This document shows, one piece after another, positions 41,238 to 59,896 of a stretch of 64,000 nt of DNA (position 1 is its first letter; the number at the start of each line of letters is the position of its first letter). The notes beneath the pieces are model-generated. The model did no database searches and had not been told where the DNA came from. It saw only the letters and a program-made list of their open reading frames with translations. The stretch lies in the NCBI GenBank assembly GCA_034509925.1, contig CM067532.1:10164680-10228679 (forward strand). The letters are read 5' to 3'. Origin of the DNA: Hirudinaria manillensis (taxonomy: Eukaryota; Annelida; Clitellata; Hirudinida; Hirudinidae). A program made the translations under genes and the position numbers.

Positions 41238-44200
41238 TCAGACAGAGAAATTACGACTGGTACTGTCGACAGAATCTCTGCAGTCGGGTATTGCCGGCTC
41301 TCGAGTCTGAACGCTGACGGCTGGAGCGGCGTTCGTAGCCGTGGCAGCTATCCTGGAAACTTCTTGTCTGACGAGATCAGGGCACTCGTAAATGTGATCG
41401 CTTCTATAGCCGAACTGAGGCGACTCGCTAGCCGATAGAAAGCTCGTCATGGCGCCGGTCTTGGTCGTGGGAGGAGGTGGAGGAGGGTAGCGATAGTTCT
41501 CTGCAATGACCATCATGTTGGCAGCGCTGACGTTCGCATCGACTGGCGACGGTTGGCCGCCAGTAGCTCTGGTCATGACGCCACTTCTCAGGATCTGCTC
41601 GCTCTGCTGTAGGAGTCTCATAGTGGCGTATTCGTTCAAGTTGTCCGCTCCTGAAGTCATGACGGGATAGTAGGAACTGACCTGAGCACCAGCAGGGAGG
41701 ATGGGATACTTTCGATCGTCCATTTGTGGACCAGTGGTGGGGTAGTACTCGGTGTCGCGTGAGAGCGAGGGATTTGGCTGGAAGCGAGTTCTGCTCATGT
41801 CGTGTCTGAGTCTCCTAGGAAATCAAAGAAAGAAACATTATTTTCTTATTTTGTCATCGCTTTTTTGTCGTCATCGCAGTAAATGCATTTAAAAGCGGAA
41901 GCATATCCCGTTTATCCGGATACTGGCTTTGCTCGGAGAACGACGGACGCCATAAAAATGATTAAGGATCACGGACTGTAATGTAAACAAGCGTTTTTCC
42001 ATTAAGTAAAAAAAAGAGAGGCGGACATTTCGAATTAATTGCTTTATGTCTCAATTGTTTTCAGACTGGAAGAGGCCCATTTCGAGTTTGATGGAAGCAA
42101 ATTGAAATTTAACTCTGATTTGAGACGTTAGCTCCACATGAAAATAGAATTTGTTTATTATGTAAATTTTAAATTATTTAAATTATTTTTAAATTTATCT
42201 ACCGCCAAATTAAACCTAAATGAAAAGCTTTTTTTTTTATCTCCCATCCCATCGATTCTGCCCCTTCCCCCGCATTCAATTGGTCGCTTCCGATCATTAC
42301 ATCCTCCAATCAAAAGCTTCGGAGGATGCCGGAGGTCATTTGTCAGAGACCCCGGGGAAATCAAGACTCTAAACAAAGGGCCAGACGCAGTCGGGTATTT
42401 TGGAAGCGATCCTCCACGTGGAAAGAACTACCGAAGGTTCGTGGAGATCAGATAAATGATGATGTTCTGTGTGGGATTAATACCTCTCACTTCTAACCCT
42501 GGACCGCAGGGCATATGGATGGATGGATAGATAGATGGATGGATGAATGAATTAATGGATGGATGGATGGATGGATGGACGGACGGACGGATGGATGGAT
42601 TGATGGATGGGCGGAGGAATATGATAAATAAAATGTTCCAGGAAAGTCATGGATTAATTTGTTGTTTTGATCGACATTTTCCCCAGACCTCGCCATTATA
42701 AGAATTAAAAAAATATTCTGTTTGCTATTCATCCCATCCGTGCATATATCAGTACGTCTGTCCATTCATCCATCCGTCCTTCTGTCCGTCCGTCCGTCCG
42801 TCCAGCCATCTATTCATCGACCCAACCATCCCACAATTTTCAATTTCCTGGCACCAATTGAGTTTCATATTTCTTCCCAATTCAATTCTCAGGACAGCAT
42901 TCATCTCTTTCTCTTCCATCTCTCAGGTCCTTTGTGTCTTCCAGACCGGCATGCGACCCCGGGGCTACTCTAATCACGGCACTCCCCACAACGGCGCACC
43001 CACCACCACCACCAGCGGCAGCTAATACCACCGGGTGCATTCATCTGCACGGTATCGCGGTCCCAAGGCGTTCTTTCCGCATTCAATTTCTTGTGCAAAT
43101 ATCCCCTGAGATGATTAGAGGAACAACATCCAATGGAGTTAGCTCAAAGGACAAAGGATGGACTGATGGATTACTGGATGAGTAAGGAAAGGATGGATGA
43201 TCCAGCAATCTGTCCAGAGATTTATTTAGATCTCTCTCTCTCTCTCTCTCTCGATGAGGGGGATAATGGACAACCCGATCCCCCTAAAATGTTGGGGATA
43301 CCCACGATGGGTACCCGTTGGGTAGGGGCATATACGACATGCAGTCGACATACTTGGTGATCAATTTCTGCATAAGTAATTAAAAATAAATAAAACCACA
43401 AATCCATCCATCCATCCATACGTCATGGAAATCACAGCCTCGGGAAAACCTCGTATCCGTGATGATCGTTTCATACCTGCTCGGTGGAAAACAAAGAGCG
43501 CGGAATATTTAAAAATAAGCAAATTTATGAAACTCGAAAGGCGGATAAGAGAAGTAGACGAGTGTGGGAATGGAATCCTATGAGACAGGAATGAAATGCC
43601 TGACTATTCGCAGACTGTCGCCTGCCATCAGACTGCTAGACCCGGGAACACCTGCTCCAGAAGAATCAGAAAGCAAAAAAAAATATGATTGCAAATTGAG
43701 TGGATGGATGGTCGAGAGGAAGAGGCGGTGAATTAGACCGTTTTCGAGGATCGAGGAGTGCATGAGTGAAATGCATATCGTTTTCATGATCGGCATGATG
43801 ACGATGATCATTCATTTCTTCGTCAAGAGTCACTGTCATCATGACGAAAGTGTCATCGTCACCGTCATCAACGTCATCGTCGTCGTCGTCGTCATCGTCA
43901 AGGTAACCGGCCCAGCGTCGGGAGATCTCTTTTGAAATTCAAATCGATGGGCGAAACGTGGACCTGAATCGGTTATGCGATGTCTACGGTTATAAACCGT
44001 CCCTCCCTCTAGCGAAAAAAAATCTATAGACCCACTTTGCAGGGTTGTTTATGGCCCCAATTCCTTACCCTACCCATCCTTACCCAACCCACCAAACCCT
44101 ACCCATGCCCTACCTTGTCTTTATCCAGTGGAGCATAGAAAGACGTGATGAGTGTAACAATGGGGACGTATGTTGCTGATGCAATGATGATGAAGCCACT

Positions 44201-59200: not shown

Positions 59201-59896
59201 ATTTCAGAGGCTAATGTTTCTCATCTCTGCGGTCCTTGCCGAGCAAATGTTTATCTCCGACTGTTGATATTCGAGTACATTTCCAATGCTAATTGCTGGC
59301 CTCACGAGGCTAATGACGAATAAATTATGCGAATAATAATAATAATAAGTTGTTGTGTTAATAATAATAATAAGTTGTATTAATAATAATAATAATAACA
59401 ACACAAATTGTACCGCAATTGATGACTTGGAAATAAATATGGTAGCATAAAAATAATTACTTGAAAAATTGGAAAATCCACGATATTAATGATATTTTGC
59501 AAAAAAAAATTCTTTTCGGACGAATTTGATAAGATTTTATGAGAAATAATAATATAATAATAACCTGGCAATCATAATTGATGCGCCAAGCATCATCGAG
59601 AATAATTATTTATAATTATTTACAATTTGTCTTTTTCTCTCGCTCGCCATAATTTCATTCTCCAGCAATTTTGTTGCCAGATTTTGAATTCTTTTAACGG
59701 AATGTTACAAAAATAATTTTAAAGATAATTAATTGCTGGCAATTGGGGCAAATGCTAACTAATTAATAATATTATCGTAATATAATTAGAACATTTCAAT
59801 AGACTAACCTGTTGCCGTGAGACTTGCAACTTGTGAAGACGACGAAGAATCGAAGGAGGAAAAGAGAAAGAAACACAATGTCACGAATTTCTTCAT
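41238..59896 (-). CDS. SUEL-lectin / CUB / CCP-like single-pass membrane protein
   Basis: Eight minus-strand exons: 59896-59809, 53847-53743, 49900-49796, 49631-49446, 48344-47580, 47406-47254, 47000-46919 and 41814-41238. They total 2061 bases (686 residues) with consistent phases. Exon 1 encodes a signal peptide ([15 protein letters not shown]). Exons 3-4 encode a SUEL/galactose-binding lectin domain (about 72-161: [47 protein letters not shown]). Exon 5 encodes a CUB-like domain ([36 protein letters not shown]) with a long Ser/Gln-rich insertion. Exon 6 is a small four-Cys CCP-like module ([34 protein letters not shown]). Exon 7 is the membrane helix (about 470-492) before KWRLRH. The last exon is a cytoplasmic tail of about 190 residues with several Tyr and a Pro run. 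A receptor or adhesion role is inferred; I know no named orthologue. Exons 1-2 are less certain than the rest, and an unseen exon could lie in the long introns. Confidence 0.75.
44832..44852. promoter_or_regulatory. ETS and YY1-like sites before a (GA)n run
   Basis: CTTCCGGG (about 44822) lies just upstream of AAAGATGGCGGAC, a close match to the YY1 consensus. A CACGTG (near 44743) and the (GA)n tract flank them. It looks promoter-like but sits inside an intron of the minus-strand gene. Confidence 0.3.
45381..45570. repeat. (CACT)n tetranucleotide array, 47 copies
   Basis: 190 bases of uninterrupted CACT units. All frames through it read as Thr-His-Ser-Leu repeats; these are not genes. Confidence 0.97.
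48751..48831. promoter_or_regulatory. NRF1 / ETS / E-box cluster, possible internal promoter
   Basis: The NRF1 palindrome GCGCATGCGC (48752-48761) is followed at once by the ETS site CCCGGAAGTAA (48763-48773). A GC-rich stretch (CCGCGCGACGCG) and TCACGTGA (48824-48831) follow. This is the usual make-up of a CpG-type housekeeping promoter. It lies in the intron between the lectin and CUB exons, about 400 bases upstream of the CUB exon in the gene's direction. Motifs are seen; promoter activity is inferred. Confidence 0.45.
49681..49774. repeat. (GAGT)n array filling the intron between the lectin exons
   Basis: Pure GAGT units make up about 94 of the 164 bases of intron 49632-49795. On the gene's sense strand it reads CACT, opposite in orientation to the arrays at 45.4 and 50.6 kb. 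Confidence 0.97.
50641..50744. repeat. (CTCA)n array, 26 copies
   Basis: Uninterrupted CTCA in the intron between the exons at 49900 and 53743. A GAT/AAT block lies nearby at 50450-50549. Confidence 0.97.
51044..51208. repeat. CAACAA-rich minisatellite
   Basis: Variable units of about 20-24 bases, each a CAA run followed by CATCAACTTT, repeated about seven times. Confidence 0.8.
52473..52654. repeat. Long perfect (TTA)n array, about 60 copies
   Basis: About 180 bases of uninterrupted ATT/TTA, the longest perfect triplet array in the window. It lies in the SUEL/CUB intron between 49900 and 53743. Confidence 0.97.
52777..52840. repeat. 21-bp tandem repeat, 3 copies
   Basis: Three perfect copies of a 21-base unit containing AAAAGGAATTATTAATAAAT. 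Confidence 0.85.
53881..53920. repeat. Perfect 13-bp stem-loop just before a 3' splice site
   Basis: CTTCATTATCGCC (53881-53893) and its exact reverse complement (53908-53920) are separated by 14 bases. On the minus strand it ends about 33 bases before the exon starting at 53847, over the expected branch-point region. Confidence 0.7.
54173..54312. repeat. 10-bp ATCAATCACA/C repeat
   Basis: About 13 copies with an exact 10-base period, alternating mainly between ATCAATCACA and ATCAATCACC. Confidence 0.88.
55045..55193. promoter_or_regulatory. X-box plus paired CRE module in intron 1
   Basis: A perfect palindromic X-box variant GTTGCCATGGTAAC (55045-55058) lies upstream of two perfect CREs (55170-55177 and 55186-55193), whose starts are 16 bases apart. 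An ETS-like CTTCCGG (near 55121) and ACCGGT (near 55138) lie between. A degenerate X-box GTTGCCATGGAGAC follows at 55361. The block is GC-richer than its surroundings. An enhancer or internal promoter is inferred. Confidence 0.45.

Follow-up and report, generated by a model that had tools for sequence, protein, structure and literature searches.

A SUEL lectin-bearing receptor gene of the leech Hirudinaria manillensis and the large family to which it belongs

SUEL lectin domains occur in the surface receptor EVA-1, in the latrophilins and in secreted rhamnose-binding lectins, and the MASPs and CSMD are known as CUB-sushi proteins. The gene described here lies in a 64-kb stretch of the genome of the leech Hirudinaria manillensis (the window; C7:10164680-10228679 of a genome of 148.4 Mb in 23 contigs), and its exon coordinates are given as window positions. 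Its predicted product has a SUEL domain, a CUB-like domain, a membrane-proximal module with four cysteines (the four-Cys module), a transmembrane helix and a cytoplasmic tail. A sequence-only reading of the window had found this architecture unfamiliar. The order is indeed present, but in this leech it is common, recurring in a very large family, so that 'unfamiliar' is only half right. The window gene is a new member of this poorly described family; what is of most interest is the family with its exon-limited homogenisation.

The motifs YGR, DPC and KYL are described for rhamnose-binding lectins in the accessible part of PMC10817417. Excerpts of other reports give three SUEL lectins for Aplysia (PMC9334734) and seven SUEL transcripts for Olavius (PMC5117596). 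Among rotifers, monogononts are described as having short SUEL lectins free of accessory domains, and bdelloids as carrying SUEL in large membrane-associated proteins (PMC8878817, in part). In Alvinella the PANTHER class 'PROTEIN EVA-1 (Gal_Lectin)' is over-represented, with 42 genes, relative to three pooled siboglinids; the available sections give no domain order for these genes (PMC12403961). The main text of four leech genome papers, in the portions available, has no word starting with 'lectin' (PMC10671345, PMC10087013, PMC10887747, PMC12820476). The order SUEL, CUB, four-Cys, helix is absent from the titles and abstract openings found in the literature, which is not proof of absence.

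The receptor gene and its domains

The receptor gene runs on the minus strand from 59896 to 41238. It has seven exons separated by AG/GT introns, all in phase (intron phases 1, 1, 1, 1, 1 and 2), which make 652 codons including the stop and a predicted protein of 651 residues. The sequence-only reading had placed the same two ends on the same strand, with the stop at 41238, but had counted eight exons and 687 codons (686 residues). For the extra 105-nt exon implied by that model there are five open AG..GT candidates, none of them supported; intron 1, of 9.9 kb, contains four and intron 3 the fifth. The order of parts that it had proposed was recovered in the spliced exons: a signal-peptide-like start, SUEL, a CUB-like domain with a Ser/Gln-rich insertion, the four-Cys module, a membrane helix followed by the stop-transfer sequence KWRLRH, and a Tyr/Pro-rich tail.

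Leave-one-out family profiles, trained on the other loci (63 SUEL, 55 CUB and 60 four-Cys rows), were run on 2,572 six-frame segments of the window. They match only the SUEL, CUB-like and four-Cys exons of this gene, in a test that is not fully independent, as the training rows were gathered with seeds including the window's own domains. One further CUB profile row, with an expectation value (E) of 330, is noise. The first third of the SUEL domain, up to YGR, is encoded by exon 2 (49796..49900; leave-one-out E 8.1e-8) and the remainder by exon 3 (49446..49631; E 1.2e-13). A paralogue on chromosome 10 also has an intron-split SUEL domain. Exon 4 (47580..48344; E 6.5e-11) encodes an Asn/Gln-rich linker and the CUB-like domain with its insertion, for which the family profile is weakly CUB-like, and exon 5 (47254..47406; E 9.5e-16) encodes the sushi-like four-Cys module. 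Exon 6 (46919..47000) holds the transmembrane helix and the start of the stop-transfer sequence and ends in a phase-2 donor. A phase-2 junction after the helix is also present in the chromosome-10 paralogue and in one gene of the chromosome-11 array described below, the two genes in which family intron phases were compared by eye. Exon 7 (41238..41814) encodes the tail, with NEYATMR, HIYECPD, KYPIL and a C-terminal NFSV, and the stop codon; some of these words are common to the tail of the paralogue. On the evidence of sequence, this is a real receptor gene.

Exon 1 (59809..59896), with the start codon, the signal-peptide-like sequence and a phase-1 donor, is the least certain. It lies 9.9 kb upstream, and its support consists of its donor, its signal-peptide character and its phase, which by eye is that of the first exons of two relatives. 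An open frame seen by eye inside intron 1 (57172-57396, minus strand), whose leader is strongly hydrophobic and whose donor is weak, is a possible alternative first exon. Long tandem repeats of TCAC/TGAG and TTA were likewise seen in introns, at 45380-45570, 49676-49775, 50637-50744 and 52454-52654.

The sequence-only reading had suggested comparing the protein with the Pfam families Gal_Lectin, CUB and Sushi. SUEL_Lectin (PF02140) matches residues 45-124 of the receptor with 34.3 bits against a cut-off of 31.4 (E 3.2e-8) and is its sole Pfam match; CUB (PF00431) and Sushi give none up to E 10. In the PDB the whole receptor matches only latrophilins up to E 1, LAT-1 at E 0.0016. A profile of the family's SUEL domains matches the rhamnose-binding lectins 5h4s (8.8e-21) and CSL3 (9.3e-13) and then LAT-1 (7.6e-11). 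The glutamate of CEG and the lysine of KYL contact the sugar in rhamnose-binding lectins. In the window gene YGR is kept and DPC, KYL and CEG are replaced by APC, NHL and CNT. Asparagine thus stands at the E of CEG, alanine at the D of DPC, and asparagine and histidine at the K and Y of KYL; in addition, glutamine stands at the N of ANYGR. All 64 family rows retain the G and R of YGR; three retain the E of CEG and two the K of KYL. A SUEL domain is assigned to the receptor, and specificity for a rhamnose-type sugar is not claimed.

The other two modules are less readily placed. The family CUB-like profile matches the PDB weakly, with MASP-3 best at E 0.0044. Up to E 10 it finds 15 sequences, of which three are carbonic anhydrases and the other 12 are CUB-carrying proteins. 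Pfam CUB matches one of 17 family members (3.9e-5), the best of 13 families matched, each in one member. In the four-Cys module four cysteines, one tryptophan and two glycines are invariant over 13 family rows. Pfam Sushi (PF00084) matches one of 13 members at E 0.055, and the module's profile has no significant match in the PDB, the best sushi protein, CSMD1 (E 0.37), standing behind a ribosomal protein (0.12). The earlier label CUB-like is supported no further than a weak profile match, and CCP-like no further than the cysteine pattern, which appears sushi-like.

A SUEL family and its chromosome-11 array

When the parts of the receptor were searched against the leech's own genome, the SUEL part gave at least 150 matches and the Pfam SUEL model 131 at E 0.001. 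Merged, the SUEL matches make about 140 loci, a count in which a few split genes are perhaps entered twice; 47 of them lie within C11:747-869 kb. The CUB-like exon has 47 matches up to E 10, 13 of them at E <=0.001 including itself, and the four-Cys and transmembrane part has 101 up to the same E; 100 of these entered the counts that follow. Of the 36 CUB-like matches outside the array, that of the window gene among them, 35 are preceded on their own strand by a SUEL match no more than 6 kb away, and none is followed by one. Of the 55 non-array four-Cys matches, 52 have SUEL within 20 kb upstream and 2 have it downstream. It is because SUEL sits one-sidedly upstream that the weak CUB-like and four-Cys matches are trusted. 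Counted from the 93 non-array SUEL loci, 35 have a CUB-like match downstream, with none upstream or on the other strand, and 54 have a four-Cys match downstream, with two upstream and six nearby on the other strand. The remaining loci may have diverged beyond the reach of a query with one sequence, or they may be SUEL genes of another kind; the full order is not claimed for all 140. Five non-array loci examined at 9.9 kb (L041-L045) each have SUEL, CUB and four-Cys in order. Domain order and helix recur in independent loci, and homologues that share the lectin and CUB parts, whose absence would have refuted the sequence-only reading, are numerous; in the chromosome-10 paralogue the exon chain is that of the window gene.

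Two further SUEL regions were observed. A cluster of partial matches at C4:9928000-10057000, often covering profile positions 40-80 or 1-45 and several of them scoring equally, looks like a second SUEL array with an intron-split domain. At C11:320010-320288 a SUEL match lies within an uninterrupted open frame of 934 residues, unlike the exon-by-exon family.

The array itself (C11:747000-869000, loci L026-L038) contains about 47 genes with the order SUEL, CUB, four-Cys, helix, in 46 plus-strand triads and a single minus-strand one. The few exceptions to the order are a split SUEL, an extra four-Cys and a doubled CUB match. A hydrophobic stretch follows 45 of the 46 plus-strand units; the reverse strand gives 11 of 46 and shuffled sequence 3 of 46. 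A stricter helix motif follows 44 of 46, with none in either control. In one array gene, read by eye, a signal peptide precedes SUEL, CUB and four-Cys, and the helix after them leads into a short tail with the end KYYVLEETLQNK.

Array genes were compared by global DNA alignment, taking the first plus-strand CUB and four-Cys match per SUEL; 1,035 pairs entered the comparison, or 946 where it concerned the parts around the helix. SUEL, CUB, introns, the transmembrane part and flanks have median identities of 0.62-0.68, within 0.02 of shuffled partners. For the four-Cys exon the median is 0.71, against 0.62 with shuffled partners, and 22.6% of the pairs exceed 0.9. In the largest group, of 22 genes, this exon of about 150 bp is 95.8% identical without gaps, and the 60 nt before and after it are 34.8% and 35.5% identical. 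The jump in identity falls at the exon borders, within a few bases. Synonymous divergence (dS) gives the same picture, being 1.49 in SUEL, 0.06 in CUB and 0.07 in four-Cys in pairs such as 816396/823326; the CUB exon too can thus be uniform in young pairs. A second small cluster at C11:1.01-1.03 Mb (L039 and L040; 1005000-1035000) has three four-Cys exons that are 96-99% identical, with upstream flanks at 33-38%. In one pair there the downstream intron flank is also 95% identical, which is what a conversion tract extending past the exon would produce. In one subgroup the exon and the SUEL tree conflict: the exon of 834743 is 99% identical to that of 792236, and its SUEL domain groups with 830154 and 832474.

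From these patterns the uniform exon is read here as the product of ectopic gene conversion limited by diverged introns. The rival is nucleotide-level selection on the exon itself. Simple protein-level selection was rejected, as it leaves the low synonymous divergence and the clash with the SUEL tree unexplained. Positive selection in the array was also considered and not seen: in the 18 pairs with a total dS below 1, the pooled ratio of nonsynonymous to synonymous divergence (dN/dS) is 0.08-0.19 for SUEL and 0.22-0.25 for CUB. These values show no sign of diversifying selection, which weakens an arms-race interpretation. Total dS was computable for 350 of the 1,035 pairs, taking the last CUB and four-Cys match after each SUEL; genes 770496, 834743 and 861026 were perhaps given a wrong or partial module, but the 18 pairs include none of the three. 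The four-Cys exon of the window gene has best non-self matches that are 34-38% identical in protein, with no sign of belonging to the uniform group.

Proposed function and rival readings

The product of the window gene is probably a type I receptor that crosses the cell membrane once and belongs to a large, lineage-expanded family with the order SUEL, CUB-like, sushi-like four-Cys, helix and tail. The outer SUEL and CUB-like domains would bind a ligand on another cell, a microbe or the matrix. This ligand may be a different glycan or a protein, because several of the classical rhamnose-motif residues are lost. A signal would then pass through tyrosines of the tail, where by consensus we take NEYATM to be a YxxM-type motif and HIYE, shared with the paralogue, a second site. 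The tail would be anchored at its C-terminus, where NFSV in the window gene and NYSL in the paralogue are presumably class II-type PDZ ligands. For the window gene, dispersed and long-tailed, a role in cell recognition and signalling is favoured; the chromosome-11 array may serve recognition of variable ligands, from microbes or in self/non-self discrimination. Put forward more tentatively is a leech or annelid repertoire of more than 100 SUEL-CUB-sushi-like receptors, in which exon-confined conversion would keep the membrane-proximal exon constant as the lectin and CUB exons diverge. Such a variable/constant design could recognize microbes or self, with the window gene as an old long-tailed signalling member.

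It is rather unlikely that the gene is instead an EVA-1- or latrophilin-like receptor for neuronal guidance or adhesion, with a SUEL domain that binds a protein partner and with no immune role of the receptor. The latrophilins as closest PDB matches of the single protein, the replaced sugar-motif residues, the long tail with its PDZ-type end and the filing of annelid SUEL genes under EVA-1 by PANTHER (PMC12403961, in part) would all suit such a receptor. About 140 SUEL loci and an array of 47 genes are unlike one. EVA-1, with two SUEL domains and no CUB, and the seven-pass latrophilins are moreover built differently.

The nearest relative bears on the tail. In a tree of 64 SUEL domains over 101 columns, few for that many rows, the window gene pairs with a gene at C10:4.73 Mb (support 99/90), and the next two loci are on C9 and C3 (99/86). 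This paralogue has an intron-split SUEL, parts of CUB, four-Cys, a helix with a phase-2 donor and, directly after the transmembrane exon and in the same phase as in the window gene, a long tail frame of 186 residues. Both tails contain NEYA[TR]MR, HIYE, KYPI, GAQVS and a C-terminal N[FY]S[VL]. They have seven 4-mers in common, a number reached by none of 20,000 shuffles; the best of 175 other open segments (177 scored, both tails left out) has two. The two tails are taken to be homologous and fast-evolving. The same exon chain and the shared words of the paralogue tie the distant tail exon to the receptor gene, to which it appears to belong, if not beyond doubt. A YATV-type motif in the tail of one array gene proved not to be general.

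Several results weigh against the proposed reading. Pfam recognizes neither CUB nor Sushi in the receptor. Local alignment of one tail with the other is not significant, since 136 of 2,000 shuffles match its score. Of the seven common 4-mers, two of which overlap, no more than two are collinear, for instance NEYA and HIYE; two collinear words also turn up in 157 of 5,000 shuffles. BLAST with either tail against the genome finds no match besides itself below E 0.2, and no NEYA/HIYE-type motif turned up when the five loci L041-L045 were searched by pattern. The failed alignment, the mostly scrambled order of the shared words, a tail exon that matches only itself and its distance of 5.1 kb from the transmembrane exon would be expected if two genes were present, one ending with the helix and the other holding the tail. 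Such a split is very unlikely, as the phase-2 join yields a stop-transfer sequence, the paralogue has its long frame in the same place and phase, and the shared 4-mers far exceed the shuffles. That the gene is a decaying or non-functional copy, as the large insertion within the CUB-like domain might suggest, is hardly credible with seven open exons, intact splice sites and the invariant cysteines of three family alignments retained.

Just downstream of the receptor gene (38952-39701, minus strand) lie a PB1 frame (40.4 bits, above its cut-off) and a PDZ frame (21.4 bits, below the cut-off of 23.2), which from their domain order we take to be a Par-6 gene. That a receptor with a PDZ-type tail end adjoins them is probably chance. 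Downstream of the chromosome-10 paralogue (L046, C10:4722500-4727200) an open frame seen by eye resembles, in our reading, the PAS domain of a potassium channel of the erg type.

Known systems

In print, the annelid SUEL expansion is filed under 'EVA-1', in the available part of PMC12403961 with no architecture given. A family that repeats one domain order, includes a tandem array and keeps an exon near-identical between diverged introns is a candidate recognition repertoire of protostomes. The array also offers a clean natural case of how gene conversion can be confined to one exon, and the shared tail words lead to testable signalling hypotheses for the window gene.

Like EVA-1 and EVA1C (PANTHER PTHR46780), the leech receptor is predicted to carry SUEL in a single-pass surface protein. 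EVA-1 however has two SUEL domains before its one helix and no CUB or sushi-like module, whereas the leech receptor has one SUEL, a CUB-like domain and a four-Cys module. With the latrophilins (ADGRL, LAT-1) it shares a single N-terminal SUEL domain. The latrophilins are seven-pass adhesion G-protein-coupled receptors; the leech protein has one helix followed by a tail exon and a stop, and adds the CUB-like and four-Cys modules. The secreted rhamnose-binding lectins (CSL3, 5h4s) are the best matches of the family SUEL profile, but they are soluble tandem SUEL proteins, and the leech receptor keeps YGR and has lost CEG, DPC and KYL. The likeness to the CUB-sushi proteins is weak, with MASP-3 at the top of the family CUB profile and CSMD1 the best sushi protein for the four-Cys profile, and these proteins, unlike the leech receptor, have no SUEL domain.

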